Origin: Streptosporangiaceae bacterium NEAU-GS5
Lineage (GTDB): Bacteria > Actinomycetota > Actinomycetes > Streptosporangiales > Streptosporangiaceae
Length of the DNA stretch: 64,000 bases
Direction of reading: 5' to 3'
Assembly: GCA_017592665.1 (NCBI GenBank)
Contig: JAGFNW010000023.1
Span: 1 to 64,000 of the forward strand
Below the pieces are notes generated by a model that saw nothing but the letters and a program-made list of their open reading frames with translations, was not told the origin of the DNA and made no database searches. Shown here in pieces: positions 34,244-50,500 of this stretch (positions within the stretch are counted from its first letter, which is position 1; each line of letters begins with the position of its first letter). The position numbers and the translations under genes are program-made.

Positions 34244-34316
34244 CGCCCTCCCGGCCGCCCGCCCGATCAGCGCGAGCGGGTTGACAAAACGGGTGACAAC
34301 TCTGTCTCAAAGAGTG

Positions 34317-34400
34317 ATCAAATACCTATCAAACTTGACGGGAATCCATGGATCAGTTTCAATATCGATTAAACCGACTTATTAAGTAGGAATCGAGGAG
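34317..34400 (+). promoter_or_regulatory. AT-rich control region of the sulfate operon
   Basis: ATCAAA occurs at 34317-34322 and 34328-34333 (11-base period), followed by TTGACG at 34335-34340 as a possible -35 and a weak AT-rich -10 around 34358-34365. An imperfect palindrome ACTTATTAAGT lies near 34377-34387, and GAGGAG at 34395-34400 is the ribosome site. The region is far more AT-rich than its surroundings. The Rrf2 regulator at the operon's end is a candidate binder. Confidence 0.4.
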
Positions 34401-44443: not shown

Positions 44444-45037
44444 TCAGGCCTCGTCGTCGTGGTCGCTGTGACCGTGCTCGTTGTCCCAGTCGTAGTCGTA
44501 GTGCTTGTTCCACACGTTGTAGATGTCGTACCAGCCGCCGCACTTGAAGGGGTGGTAGTAGCCGTCGTTGTCGTAGGCGTCCCACTTGTAGACCTGGCAG
44601 ACCTTCACCTGGACCTTGGAGACGTCGTACAGCGTCGGGGTGTTGAAGTAGTACGGGTGGTGGTTGTCGCAGTTGTAGTACGACAGGTAGTCCGTGTACC
44701 AGTGGTGGTCGTACCAGTACTGGTAGCGGATCTTGACGTACGCGCACTTGCTGTCGCGGTGGTCGTAGTCGTACAGGCGGCCGTTGATGTCGACCTCGTT
44801 CGAGTGGTAGCCGTCGTAGCTGACGTCAATGTGACCCTTGGCCTTCGCCTTGTAGTTCTGCGAGTAGTAGGGGCCCCAGTGGTTCGAGTAGTCGAAGTCG
44901 TCCCAGTCCCACGACGGGGAGCTGGCGGTGGTCGCGGTGGTGGCGCTGGCGGGCGCGGCGGCCATGAGCGGGGCGCCCAGGCCGACGATCGCGGTGGCGG
45001 CGGCCAGGCCCAACATGGTGCGAACTGAGGTGCGCAT
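44444..45037 (-). CDS. Secreted Tyr/Asp/His-rich protein of unknown function
   Basis: 197 residues. Signal peptide about 1-33 ending in AAAPASA, so it is exported. The mature chain is extraordinarily rich in Tyr, Asp, His and Trp (for example YQYWYDHHWYTDYLSYY and NKHYDYDWDNEHGHSDHDD). It holds four Cys (CAYVKI, YNCDN, VKVCQV, FKCGG), probably two disulfides. The skeleton resembles small secreted actinomycete proteins with beta-sandwich-like CA.V.. and V.VCQ motifs, but the function is unknown. ATG 45037 has AGGAG eight bases upstream. SARP-type repeats lie 83-123 bases upstream. Confidence 0.85.
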   Translation of the reverse strand: MRTSVRTMLGLAAATAIVGLGAPLMAAAPASATTATTASSPSWDWDDFDYSNHWGPYYSQNYKAKAKGHIDVSYDGYHSNEVDINGRLYDYDHRDSKCAYVKIRYQYWYDHHWYTDYLSYYNCDNHHPYYFNTPTLYDVSKVQVKVCQVYKWDAYDNDGYYHPFKCGGWYDIYNVWNKHYDYDWDNEHGHSDHDDEA

Positions 45038-45119
45038 CGGTTTTCTCCTGTGCTTCGTTTGAGGACGATCACCCCCCTCGGGGGGCGCAACACAGTTATG
45101 CCGGGAACCGCCTGCAGCC

Positions 45120-45163
45120 GCCTTGACCCCGCCTGGCCGTCGCCTTGCAAACCGCTTGAACAC
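45120..45163 (-). promoter_or_regulatory. SARP-type direct repeats upstream of the secreted protein gene
   Basis: On the minus strand the heptamers TCAAGCG (45153-45159), GCAAGGC (45142-45148), GCCAGGC (45131-45137) and TCAAGGC (45120-45126) recur with an exact 11-base period (4-base spacers). SARP regulators such as ActII-ORF4 and DnrI bind TCGAG-type heptamers with this geometry just upstream of the -10. A TAACTG/CATAAC hexamer lies about 20 bases further toward the gene. Confidence 0.6.
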
Positions 45164-45192
45164 CTATGACCACCTGGGCGAAGACACAAGAG

Positions 45193-45230
45193 AGGGAGCC
45201 ACCGCGATTCCCCCTGCGGTGGCTCCCTCG
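45193..45230. other. Perfect 14-bp hairpin in divergent region
   Basis: GAGGGAGCCACCGC (45193-45206) pairs perfectly with GCGGTGGCTCCCTC (45217-45230) around a 10-base loop. Neither flanking gene ends here, so it is not an ordinary gene terminator. It may end an unannotated small RNA or insulate the two promoters. Confidence 0.6.
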
Positions 45231-45241
45231 GATATCTGAAG

Positions 45242-45273
45242 GGGCATGGCCGCCCCCGTTGGGGCCATGCCTC
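45242..45273. other. Second GC-rich hairpin in divergent region
   Basis: GGGCATGGCC and GGCCATGCC form a 9-10-bp stem around a C/G-rich loop, 12 bases after the first hairpin. A smaller ATGCT/AGCAT stem follows at about 45275-45287. Confidence 0.55.
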
Positions 45274-45310
45274 GATGCTCAAAGCATGGGCGAAGGCGCT
45301 TGACGTGCGA

Positions 45311-45328
45311 TCAAAGCCGGATCAATGC
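45311..45328 (+). promoter_or_regulatory. SARP-type heptamer pair upstream of the SARP gene
   Basis: TCAAAGC (45311-45317) and TCAATGC (45322-45328) are separated by four bases, giving an 11-base period on the plus strand. A further TCAAAGC lies at 45279-45285. Same-sense orientation toward the SARP gene at 45432 suggests autoregulation. Confidence 0.45.
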
Positions 45329-45431
45329 GCTTGAACGTTGCATGAACCCCAGCGCTGCTCTCTATTGGACCAACGCCCTGGGTTCTATCATTGGTCGGAA
45401 AACTTCCCAATAACCCGGAGTAATTCGCGTC

Positions 45432-48392
45432 ATGGCTGGTCACGGCCAAGAAGGCGAGCCGCGGTTCGCCGTGCTCGGGCCTGTTCAGGCCTGGGCCGGT
45501 GGCGCGGAGCTCGACCTGGGCACGCCGTTGCAACGCTCCATCCTCGCGATGTTGCTGCTCCGCGAGGGCCGCGCGGTCACACCGACCGAGGTGATCGACG
45601 CCGTCTGGGGCGAGGAGGCGCCCCCTCGGGCGCTCGGCGCGCTCCGCACGTACGTCTCGCGGCTGCGCACCGTCCTCGAGCCGGACAGGTCCCCGCGCAC
45701 GCCGCCTCAGCTGCTCACCTCGGTGGGCCGCGGGTACGCCCTGCGCATCCCGCCGGGCGCCTTCGACCTGGCCGTCTTCGAACGCGCCTGCGCCGACGCC
45801 GAGACCGCACGGCGCGGCGGCCGGCTGCGCGCGGCCGCGGACGGACTGCGCGGCGCGCTCGCCCTGTGGCGGGGCGAGCCGCTGGCCGGGGCCGTCGGGC
45901 CGTACGCCGACCACCAGCGCGACCGGCTGGCCGAGCGGCGGATGGGCGTGGTCGAGACGCTCATGGACCTCGACCTCGAGCTCGGCAGGCACGGCGAGAT
46001 CGTCGCCGAGCTCCGCGCGCTCGCCGCCGACCATCCGCTGCGCGAGAAGCTGCGCGCCCAGCTCATGCTCGCCCTCTACCGCTGCGGCCGGCAGGCCGAC
46101 GCCCTCGCCGTCTTCTCCGAGACCAGGAACGCGCTGATCGAGGAGCTGGGCATCGACCCCGGCCCCGAGCTCACGGCACTGCACCAGCGGATCCTCGCCG
46201 CCGACCCGGGCCTGGCCGCGCCGGAGCCGCCGGCCGAGTCCGCCGCCGAACCCGCGCACGAGGCCGAGGAGCGGTCCGAGCCGGTCATCGAGATGCCGAA
46301 ACCGGCCCAGCTGCCGGCGGCGGTCAACGACTTCACCGGCCGGGGCGGCCTGGTGGCCCGTCTGATGACCCTGCTGAAGGACCGCGACGGCGTGCCGCTC
46401 GCGGCCGTGTCCGGCATCGGCGGCGTCGGCAAGACCACGCTCGCCGTCCACGTGGCCCACCTGGCGCAGGACCTGTACCCCGACGGCCAGCTCTACGCCG
46501 ACCTCCGCGGCTACCTGAAGGAGCCGACCCCGCCCGAGACGGCGCTCGTGGCGTTCCTCCGCGCGCTCGGCATCCCCGTCGACGTCATCCCGGACGGCCT
46601 GGCCGACCGGGCCGCCCTGTTCCGCTCGCTGCTGGCCGACCGGCGGATGCTGGTCCTGCTCGACAACGCCCGCGACGCCGACCAGGTCGAGCACCTGCTG
46701 CCCGGCTCGGCCGGCTGCGCCGCGATCATCACGAGCCGGGGCAAGCTCGCCGACCTGCCGGCCGCCCGGCTCATCGACCTCGACGTGATGGAGCCCGACG
46801 AGGCGCTGTCGCTGTTCTCGGCCGTCGCCGGGCCCGAGCGGATCGAGGCCGAGCACGCCGCCGCCATGGACGTGGTCGCCGCCTGCGGCTTCCTGCCCCT
46901 TGCGGTGCGGATCGTGGCCGCCCGGCTGGCCGCACGTCCCTCGTGGACCGTGGCGTCCCTGGTTCCGCGGCTGGCCGACGAGCGGCGCCGCCTGGACGAG
47001 ATGAAGATCGGCAACCTGGCCGTCTCGGCCACCTTCGCGCTCGGCTACGGTCAGCTCGACCCTGACCAGGCGCGCGCGTTCCGACTGCTGTCGCTGCCCA
47101 GCGGATCGGACATCTCGCTGCTGGCCGCCGCGGCCGTACTCGACCTTAGCCTGCTCGACGCCGAGGACCTGCTGGAATCGCTGGTCGACGCCAGCCTGCT
47201 CGAGGCGCCGACCCCCGGCCGCTACCGCTTCCACGACCTGCTCCGGCTTTTCGCGCGCCGGCAGGTGACCGACGCCGACGACCCGCAGGGCGCGCTCACC
47301 CGGCTGCTCGGCTACTACCTCGCCTCGGCCAAGGAGGCCCACCGCCTCGCGTACGAGGGCAGCAGGATCGCCGACAACCTCCAGGTCGTCGGCACCAAGG
47401 GGCACACGTTCGGATCGGCGGACGAGGCCGTCGCCTGGCTGGCCGCCGAGGCCGAGGATCTGTTCGCGGTCACCGGCCAGGTGATCGAGTCGGGCGAGAA
47501 CCTGCTCGCCGCGGCCGACCTGCTGCTCGCGCTGGAGCCGCTGCTGGAGTCGGGCACCAGCGGGCGCGAGTTCGACACCAGGACCCGCGCGCTGATCGCG
47601 GGCGCGCAGCGCGCCGGTGACCGGCACGCCGAACTGCGCTGCCACTACGTGCTCGGCCGCGCCCTTTTCGGCGCCAACCAGCTGGAGGAGGCCGAGCGCT
47701 GCTTCCTGCGCGCCCGGGCCATCGCCGAGGACGTCGAGGACACCATCGTGCTCGGCGAGACGCTCAACGCGCTGGCCGTCGTGGCCGGCCGGCAGCGCCG
47801 GCACACCGAGGCGCTGGAGTGGTTCGACCGGGCGACCAAGGTCTACCGCGAGGTCGGCAACCCGGCCGGCGAGGCGCTGGTGCTCAGCTACTCCGCCCGC
47901 GATCACCTCGGCCTCGGCCACCCCGACGACGCCATCGCCGCGTCCGAGCAGGGATTGGCCATGTTCAGCGAGATGGGCAGCGGGGCCGGAGTGGCCAGGG
48001 CCCGCTATCACCTCGGCATCGTGCTGTCGTTCGTGGGACGGCTCAACGAGGCCGTCGTCCACCACGCCGAGTGCCTTGACTTCTTCCGCGCCAGCAACCA
48101 GCGAGTCTGGGAGCAGCGGGTCTGCTATCGGCTGGCGTCCACGTTCATCGCGGCCGGCCGCTACGCCGACGGGGTGCGCCACGCGGAGCAGGCGCTCGCC
48201 GTCAGCCGCGAGATCACCCACCCGTACGGCGAGGCGCTGTCGCTGACCGCGCTCGGCAAGGCGTTACGAGGGCTCGGCGAGACCCGGCGTAGCCGGGACG
48301 CCCTCGAAAGGGCGCTGGACATCTTCACCCGCCTCGGTTCCCCCGAGGCCGACGACGTCCGCGCGCTCCTCCGTGACGGGGTCACCGCCTAG
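45432..48392 (+). CDS. AfsR/SARP family regulator with NB-ARC and TPR domains
   Basis: 986 residues, the size of large AfsR-type regulators. Domain order: OmpR-like winged helix (about 12-98, ending VGRGYALRIPPGAFD); bacterial transcriptional activator domain (about 105-250); linker; NB-ARC ATPase with P-loop GIGGVGKTT (about 328) and Walker B MLVLLDNARD; and C-terminal TPR repeats (about 640-980, for example ALEWFDRATKVYREVGNPAG). SARPs activate target promoters through heptameric direct repeats. Its divergent neighbour and own promoter carry such repeats. There is no biosynthetic cluster beside it, so the local target may be the secreted protein. Confidence 0.93.
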   Translation: MAGHGQEGEPRFAVLGPVQAWAGGAELDLGTPLQRSILAMLLLREGRAVTPTEVIDAVWGEEAPPRALGALRTYVSRLRTVLEPDRSPRTPPQLLTSVGRGYALRIPPGAFDLAVFERACADAETARRGGRLRAAADGLRGALALWRGEPLAGAVGPYADHQRDRLAERRMGVVETLMDLDLELGRHGEIVAELRALAADHPLREKLRAQLMLALYRCGRQADALAVFSETRNALIEELGIDPGPELTALHQRILAADPGLAAPEPPAESAAEPAHEAEERSEPVIEMPKPAQLPAAVNDFTGRGGLVARLMTLLKDRDGVPLAAVSGIGGVGKTTLAVHVAHLAQDLYPDGQLYADLRGYLKEPTPPETALVAFLRALGIPVDVIPDGLADRAALFRSLLADRRMLVLLDNARDADQVEHLLPGSAGCAAIITSRGKLADLPAARLIDLDVMEPDEALSLFSAVAGPERIEAEHAAAMDVVAACGFLPLAVRIVAARLAARPSWTVASLVPRLADERRRLDEMKIGNLAVSATFALGYGQLDPDQARAFRLLSLPSGSDISLLAAAAVLDLSLLDAEDLLESLVDASLLEAPTPGRYRFHDLLRLFARRQVTDADDPQGALTRLLGYYLASAKEAHRLAYEGSRIADNLQVVGTKGHTFGSADEAVAWLAAEAEDLFAVTGQVIESGENLLAAADLLLALEPLLESGTSGREFDTRTRALIAGAQRAGDRHAELRCHYVLGRALFGANQLEEAERCFLRARAIAEDVEDTIVLGETLNALAVVAGRQRRHTEALEWFDRATKVYREVGNPAGEALVLSYSARDHLGLGHPDDAIAASEQGLAMFSEMGSGAGVARARYHLGIVLSFVGRLNEAVVHHAECLDFFRASNQRVWEQRVCYRLASTFIAAGRYADGVRHAEQALAVSREITHPYGEALSLTALGKALRGLGETRRSRDALERALDIFTRLGSPEADDVRALLRDGVTA

Positions 48393-48609: not shown

Positions 48610-48649
48610 ACCCACAACCGAAGAATGGCCGACACCGGTCAACGGCCGA

Positions 48650-50083
48650 TTAGCGAGTAATTGCGAAGAACCCCTGGGAGATGAGCGATCGGAGAGATCC
48701 CAGGTCAGGGGACTGGCCGGTGAGTTCGGCGATGGCGCCGATCAACGGGCGGAGCGGCAGGGTGCCGTCACAGACCCCCGCGAGGGCGGCCTCCACCGTG
48801 CCGACCGTCGCCGTTCGGCGCAGCCCGCGCGTCTGCCGGAGCACGATGATCGACGGATCCTCGGCGCCGGGCGGCCCGATCCGCTCCTCGGTGACGCCCT
48901 CGGCCGGCGCCAGCCGCGCGTCGAGCAGATCCTCCTCCGAAATCCGGTGCGCCTGGCCGATCGCCTCGAGCACGTCGTCGACGTACGCTCCGACCGGCAG
49001 TTCGACCTGATGGGTCAGCTCCTCCACCCGGACCACCGGGTCGAGCGAGCCCACGTCGGCCAGCGTCAGCCAGCCGAAGCCGATCCCGGCCACCCCGAGC
49101 GAGTCGAACCAGGCCAGCCACTCGTCGTAGCGCTCGCGGTAGACGGGGGTGCCCTGCTCGACCGCGTCCCGCAGCCACAACTCCACATATTCGGCCGGAT
49201 CCTGTACGTCGCGCTGGACGGCCCAGCCGTCGAGGCCGGTCTCGGCCATCCAGCCGCCCACCCGATCACGCCAGTCCTCGCCCTTGACGTGCAGCCAGTT
49301 GGCCAGCAGGTGACACCGGCCGCCGGGATTCAGGTGCCGGGGGGCCTGCCGTACGAGGTCGCGGCAGAAGTCGTCGGCCTGGAAGCCGGACTCCCGGTAG
49401 GTGAGCCGCCCGGAGGGCGAGATCACGAACGGCGGATTGGACACCACGAGGTCGAACCGCTCTCCGGCGACCGGCTCGAACATCGACCCGAGCCGCGTCT
49501 CCACGCCGGTGACCCCGGACAGCGCCCAGCTCAGCTCGGCCAGATCCAGCGCGCGCCGGTTGACGTCGGTGGCGACCACCGAGCCGGCCCTGCCGTGCAG
49601 GTGGAGGACCTGCACGCCGCAGCCGGTGCCGAGGTCGAGGGCGCGGCCCGTGGGACGGCGGCTGACCAGCTGCGCGAGATTGGCCGACGCGCCGCCCGCG
49701 CCCACCACGTGGTCGCGCCGGAGCGCCGGGTCGCCCGGCCGGACCTTGCGGTCGGACACCACGTAGCCGCCGGTCTCCCAGGGCTGCAGGTGGACCGTGG
49801 CCTGGACCGCGTCGCCCACCTTGACCAGCAGACCGGCCTGCAGCAGGTCGCGGACCGGCAGATCGACGGCGGGCGTGCTGACCGGAAGGCCGAGCCACCA
49901 CAGGCGGATCAGCGTGCCGAGCGCGTCGCCGTCGCGGGTGGCGCGCATCGCGGGCACCAGCTCCTCGCGGGACAGCGCGGCGGCGGCCGTCGAGCCCAGC
50001 CGCTCACGCACGCCGTCGATCGTGTAGCCCAGCTCCAGGAACCGGTCGCGTAGCCGAAGGGGCAGCTCAGCGGGGATGCGCAC
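48650..50083 (-). CDS. Class I SAM-dependent methyltransferase (NPPF type)
   Basis: 477 residues. An N-terminal helical domain (1-130, LRLRDRFLELGYTIDGVRERLG) precedes a Rossmann methyltransferase domain with ALDLGTGCGVQVLHL (about 150), VVATDVNRRALDLA, and the NPPF motif in DLVVSNPPFVISPSG (about 225), which marks N-methyltransferases of the HemK/RlmG kind. A C-terminal domain of about 190 residues follows. This three-domain protein is widespread in actinobacteria. The substrate is unknown but is probably rRNA, a protein Gln or a nucleic acid base. Confidence 0.87.
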   Translation of the reverse strand: MRIPAELPLRLRDRFLELGYTIDGVRERLGSTAAAALSREELVPAMRATRDGDALGTLIRLWWLGLPVSTPAVDLPVRDLLQAGLLVKVGDAVQATVHLQPWETGGYVVSDRKVRPGDPALRRDHVVGAGGASANLAQLVSRRPTGRALDLGTGCGVQVLHLHGRAGSVVATDVNRRALDLAELSWALSGVTGVETRLGSMFEPVAGERFDLVVSNPPFVISPSGRLTYRESGFQADDFCRDLVRQAPRHLNPGGRCHLLANWLHVKGEDWRDRVGGWMAETGLDGWAVQRDVQDPAEYVELWLRDAVEQGTPVYRERYDEWLAWFDSLGVAGIGFGWLTLADVGSLDPVVRVEELTHQVELPVGAYVDDVLEAIGQAHRISEEDLLDARLAPAEGVTEERIGPPGAEDPSIIVLRQTRGLRRTATVGTVEAALAGVCDGTLPLRPLIGAIAELTGQSPDLGSLRSLISQGFFAITR

Positions 50084-50188
50084 GAAAAGAATCTAGCGTT
50101 ACTCGGCACTGGGCAAGCAGCTTGCAAGTGACATGAAAGGGGCCTGACGTATGGGTCATTCGTACGATTGTCGCCCTTAGGACCCGAA

Positions 50189-50500
50189 ATGCTGATCCCT
50201 TGCATGGCCTGTGAGTCCCGTTTCCGCCCTGACGAGTACTTCAAGGCCTGCCATGACTACAACCGTGGCAAAGATCTTGTGGCGTGGACCTGCCCGCAGT
50301 GTGGCAACCGAGACGAAATCCGGGTGCTGCCCGGAGAGCTCGGCTTCGGCTATCCCGGACGTGGCCGCTATGACGTCCATGACCGCATTTTGGTGCCGGG
50401 GATGCGGCGCAAGCGCCACGACCTGCGCCTCGACATCTCCCTCAACCAGCAGGTTTGGCGAGTGCCCGTGCGCCTCAGAGGTTTCGCGCCGGCCCGATAG
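50189..50500 (+). CDS. Small zinc-ribbon-like hypothetical protein
   Basis: 103 residues. Two CxxC pairs (PCMACES near 5-8 and TCPQCGN near 35-38) suggest one zinc ribbon. A basic segment GMRRKRHDLRLDISLNQQVWRVPVRL follows in the C-terminal half. TAGGA precedes ATG 50189 by six to seven bases. Its 3' end overlaps the convergent dehydrogenase gene by 26 bases. Function unknown. Confidence 0.7.
   Translation: MLIPCMACESRFRPDEYFKACHDYNRGKDLVAWTCPQCGNRDEIRVLPGELGFGYPGRGRYDVHDRILVPGMRRKRHDLRLDISLNQQVWRVPVRLRGFAPAR

Follow-up and report, generated by a model that had tools for sequence, protein, structure and literature searches.

In Streptomyces, the SARP-NB-ARC-TPR regulator AfsR is paired with the afs box of afsS, which lies downstream of afsR and carries two direct repeats with a period of 11 bp and a distance of 9 nt to the -10 element. 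The published repeat unit is CGTT(C/T)ATCG (PMC10936776, PMC10972967). The sites of ActII-ORF4, DnrI and PimR are composed of heptameric direct repeats separated by 4 nt, and most of them cover the -35 region (PMC10972967). PHO boxes of PhoP are 11-bp direct repeats as well and overlap AfsR sites in Streptomyces (PMC10972967). Outside biosynthetic clusters, EmbR of Mycobacterium is a precedent for control by the SARP family (PMC9239209).

The window analysed here is a stretch of 64 kb from an actinobacterial genome of 9.96 Mb, whose named relatives are Herbidospora, Planobispora, Nonomuraea, Streptosporangium and others; Herbidospora is placed in the Streptosporangiaceae. Two arrays of 11-bp direct repeats are found in the intergenic region between a SARP gene and a divergent gene for a secreted protein. 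With the AfsR system this locus shares the type of regulator, the 11-bp repeats and the 9 nt to the -10 element. In addition, the unit of the plus-side array, G-T(C/T)A-CG, resembles the afs unit, with matches at G, T, Y, A, C and G (PMC10936776, PMC10972967). In contrast to the two repeats downstream of afsR, however, five repeats are located here upstream of the SARP's own promoter. The sites of the small SARPs ActII-ORF4 and DnrI and those of PimR are similar in their heptameric direct repeats and 4-nt spacers, but the arrays described here have up to five or six units, and their presumed targets are secreted or envelope genes rather than biosynthetic ones. EmbR possesses a DNA-binding half of the same SARP type, as seen from a match of the window SARP to 2FEZ, but has an FHA domain instead of NB-ARC-TPR and other target genes. 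PHO boxes share the 11-bp direct repeats, whereas their unit in related pstS promoters (GTTCACY) is unlike either array. Overall, this is a real, conserved regulatory region, which the preliminary description had read correctly in outline.

The AfsR-like SARP and its divergent neighbour

The SARP gene (45432–48392, plus strand) codes for a protein of 986 amino acids, in which profile and structure matches reveal a winged helix, BTAD, NB-ARC and TPR. The first two of these define a SARP, and their combination with NB-ARC and TPR defines the AfsR type. The former assignment as a SARP-NB-ARC-TPR protein is confirmed by the domain matches. The regulator is of the AfsR kind and can be aligned end to end with the AfsR structure 8K60 (E 3.5e-244). 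With the AfsR equivalog model NF053617 it reaches 1051 bits, which is below the curated cut-off of 1430 bits but far above the other SARPs of Streptomyces genomes (685–712 bits). It differs from AfsR in this respect and also in that no afsS-like gene with an afs box was seen 3' of the SARP gene. When the whole class was searched, the orthologues of the window SARP in Streptosporangiaceae ranked as a group directly behind Streptomyces AfsR. Within its own genome it is the sole close AfsR homologue among 43 SARP-like matches, the next one being 42% identical. T88 and R92, which contact DNA in AfsR (PMC10936776), are retained, but contact residues of this kind are probably common among SARPs generally.

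The next gene after the SARP gene encodes a convergent methyltransferase (48650–50083). No biosynthetic cluster was seen adjoining the SARP gene, in agreement with the preliminary description. At the 3' end of the methyltransferase gene, a pair of AfsR-type units with a distance of 11 bp (GGTCAACGGCCGATTAGCG, 48636–48660) was observed, with no obvious target.

The secreted protein (gene at 44447–45037, minus strand) comprises 197 amino acids with a signal peptide and four invariant cysteines. A beta-sandwich domain is predicted for residues 53–174 approximately, with pLDDT mostly above 90. Searches of Pfam and NCBIfam with this protein matched no family, and a fold search of the PDB yielded nothing at E<0.001. 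The secreted family has several paralogues per genome, with nine matches in the window genome.

Repeat arrays and hairpins between the two genes

Ahead of the secreted gene, an array of five direct repeats with a period of 11 bp is located on the minus strand (45110–45160). It consists of TTCAAGC (45160–45154), TGCAAGG (45149–45143), GGCCAGG (45138–45132), GTCAAGG (45127–45121) and TGCAGGC (45116–45110). The -10 element CATAAC (45095–45100, minus strand; TATCAA or TATCAC in relatives) follows 9 nt past the last repeat. When related loci were searched for the proximal repeat and the -10 element with permitted gaps of 7–11 nt, the gap was 9 nt in 30/30 matched loci. The array is kept in register at 29 other loci, and a model trained on other genomes only has its top match in the window at this locus, with a score of 15.6 compared to 0.28 for the next best position. 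For 17 non-redundant loci from relatives, the lag-11 self-identity amounts to 0.459 versus 0.271 ± 0.016 (sd) in shuffles. A search pattern of nothing more than three AAGC units was discarded, as its matches are swamped by coding sequence.

The preliminary description had reported four minus-strand heptamers every 11 bp. All of them are found in the sequence, although their register was one base off and the promoter-proximal TGCAGGC had been missed. A four-heptamer run of this type occurs once in the 64 kb, both strands considered, while the mean in 200 block-shuffles of the window is 0.0 per strand. The proposed SARP geometry holds as well, the period and position of the repeats being of the SARP/AfsR type. 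Heptameric 11-bp direct repeats replace the -35 element, and a short gap of fixed length (9 nt, 30/30 loci) separates the last repeat from the -10 element, as in SARP-type sites. Absence of the repeats from relatives keeping both genes had been named beforehand as a refuting observation; on the minus side, the repeats are retained there. That the secreted gene is under SARP-type control is hence a well-supported prediction.

On the plus strand, a second array of five units (45298–45348) is located upstream of the SARP promoter: GCTTGACG (45298), GATCAAAG (45309), GATCAATG (45320), CTTGAACG (45330) and CATGAACC (45341), with spacings of 11, 11, 10 and 11 between the unit cores. Two plus-strand heptamers 11 bp apart had been noted earlier; these repeats are present, but the units number five. 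The probable SARP promoter, as read from the sequence (45362–45391, plus strand), contains CTATTGG in the -35 region (45362) and CTATCAT as -10 element (45385), and both motifs are kept in most orthologues. The array is thus situated upstream of the probable -35 region, unlike the position of AfsR at afsS. A model built without the window scores this locus with 18.5 and the runner-up, at 34305, with 13.0. At the latter position (34305–34335), three TCAAA repeats 11 bp apart precede a gene for a solute-binding (sulfate-type) ABC transporter protein. This promoter resembled a further array of the AfsR type but was set aside, because its repeats are unconserved in relatives.

A strict three-unit version of the plus-side array is found at 36/64 orthologous SARP loci. 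In Herbidospora, where the intergenic region is short, the array is lost and the SARP kept. The array is retained at the loci of SARP orthologues with or without the secreted gene; in many relatives without it, an acetyltransferase gene lies directly before the SARP gene. Since the plus-side array persists where the secreted gene is absent, each array goes with its own gene. For comparison, 25 afs boxes were extracted from Streptomyces genomes. They contain two NGTTYATC repeats, 9 nt and a CANNCT -10 element, which agrees with the box described in the literature (PMC10936776, PMC10972967). Because these afsS boxes fit the plus-side unit (z=20) far better than the minus-side unit (z=6.9), the plus-side array resembles a site of the AfsR type that belongs to the gene of the regulator itself. 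Most probably, it is an AfsR-box-like operator by which the AfsR-like SARP controls its own gene.

A hairpin or inverted repeat (GGCATGGCC-GCCCCCGTTGG-GGCCATGCC, 45243–45271) is conserved between the two promoters. It has a near-constant GCCCCCG inside, a C-rich loop and strongly covarying arms, with 38 cells changed on both sides versus 13.3 in shuffles and changes on both sides in 9/12 outer pairs. The hairpin is retained in relatives irrespective of the presence of the secreted gene, and an Rfam search with it gave no family. Furthermore, the minus strand carries a perfect 14-bp inverted repeat with a T-rich stretch after it (45192–45229). It was not flagged by a terminator scan; a terminator or insulator is a possible assignment. 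Terminator-like hairpins are also seen at the matching place in relatives (e.g. locus L075), which suggests either an insulator or a short transcript from the minus strand.

Range of the minus-side array and candidate regulators

A model trained solely on SARP-linked loci and applied with a threshold of p<=0.02 finds the minus-side array at 27/41 upstream regions of unlinked secreted paralogues, compared to 0/18 controls. Most members of the secreted family that bear the array are unlinked to the AfsR-like SARP, while several secreted paralogues in the window genome are clearly without it. The array is also present before LGFP-repeat secreted proteins, a membrane protein and other secreted genes. 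In two genomes (G025 and G039), a secreted gene carries the array and no orthologue of the AfsR-like SARP is present. The preliminary description had regarded the secreted protein as the single or nearest target of the SARP. This part of it is not supported, in view of the array in front of unlinked paralogues, of other genes and in two SARP-less genomes. A view in which one SARP serves a single secreted target is probably too narrow, and the minus-side array appears to be a regulon element rather than the private switch of one gene pair.

The second-best match of the minus-side model in the window is a further array of this type (50113–50155, plus strand; GGCAAGC, TGCAAGT, TGAAAGG, 9 nt, TATGGG). 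It precedes a cytoplasmic-looking ORF of 103 amino acids (50189–50500), for which a Pfam search gave no family. This ORF shows cysteine pairs and is possibly a zinc ribbon.

We propose a two-site model, which we consider fairly probable, with two separate SARP-type control sites in the intergenic region: a SARP activator site on the minus side and an AfsR-like operator on the plus side. SARP winged-helix protomers would sit side by side on the minus-side 11-bp repeats, replacing the -35 element, and would recruit RNA polymerase to the -10 element nine bases away, which switches on the secreted gene. Sites of this type may drive some further envelope genes in addition to most of the secreted family. 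The plus-side array, in turn, would most probably serve the AfsR-like SARP to regulate its own gene. The arrays, their conservation, the fixed spacing, the occurrence at unlinked paralogues and the fit of afsS boxes to the plus-side unit are observations; we infer SARP binding to either array, the direction of control and the SARP acting on the secreted promoters. For the latter, the AfsR-like SARP and a second large SARP seem about equally likely.

According to a plausible, if tentative, alternative, the AfsR-like SARP binds both arrays and activates the divergent secreted gene together with its own. The divergent pair of SARP and secreted gene is indeed conserved in many genera. The AfsR-like SARP accompanies the secreted family in 17/19 genomes, and the array with its -10 pattern is found in 38/65 genomes with this SARP versus 4/86 without, but SARP co-occurrence figures follow one clade and are confounded by shared descent. 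Both units have a YAA core in common, the plus-side array comes third in the window when scored with the minus-side model, and the 9-nt gap at the minus-side loci is that of the 25 Streptomyces afsS promoters. However, the unit sequences differ (GATCAACGC on the plus side versus TGYARGCG on the minus side), and the array in G025 and G039 as well as the unlinked position of most array-bearing family members speak against this alternative.

It is also possible, though somewhat unlikely, that the minus-side arrays are read by the second, more widely conserved large SARP (C23:32726 in the window genome, an orthologue of G039 C1:3129194) and that the AfsR-like SARP is a mere neighbour. The DNA-binding half of the second SARP is mostly 77–84% identical across the group. 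This SARP occurs in 19/19 genomes that have the secreted family (G025 and G039 among them) and is absent from 40/42 genomes without it, but this co-occurrence is likewise only at clade level. Only two SARPs of G039 resemble the query at E<1e-30, and the one large protein of these is the second SARP. On the other hand, a minus-side-type array pointing to autoregulation was looked for at its own promoter and not seen, nor was any linkage to secreted genes. Immediately upstream of another large SARP (L228, G025:C4:13659), a run of TCCAAG repeats every 11 bp was observed, which suggests that large SARPs may commonly control themselves via units of their own.

OmpR-family (PhoB-type) response regulators likewise have 11-bp direct repeats that overlap or replace the -35 element. 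The 11-bp geometry is therefore no proof of a SARP, and an OmpR-type response regulator might bind the minus-side arrays instead. We regard this as unlikely, because no candidate regulator was found, and both the heptamer T--A(A/G)-- and the arrangement in several units resemble SARP sites. The PHO box in related pstS promoters, GTTCACY-N4-GTTCACC, is unlike either array; PhoP was rejected as regulator of both, given this difference from its GTTCACC unit. Finally, the unconserved TCAAA triplet before the solute-binding gene at 34305 illustrates that repeats in a single genome can mislead, but an origin of the repeats from chance matches in a GC-rich intergenic region is contradicted by the conservation, the fixed spacing and the paralogue tests and is extremely improbable.

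Implications for SARP regulation

To our knowledge, work on SARPs has dealt almost exclusively with their role in switching antibiotic clusters, and a literature search on the arrays described here found no report. A conserved SARP-type promoter before a family of uncharacterised secreted proteins would represent a direct, testable non-antibiotic regulon. Moreover, the two adjacent arrays with their different units constitute a natural test of SARP specificity determinants. As a speculative extension, which we would not call likely, SARPs in one Streptosporangiaceae clade may maintain, via multi-unit arrays, a standing regulon that comprises many secreted beta-sandwich and envelope proteins, with the AfsR homologue, divergent from one member, controlling itself via an AfsR-type array. 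If this is true, AfsR-type regulation would have a role in surface proteins that is older than, or separate from, antibiotic control.
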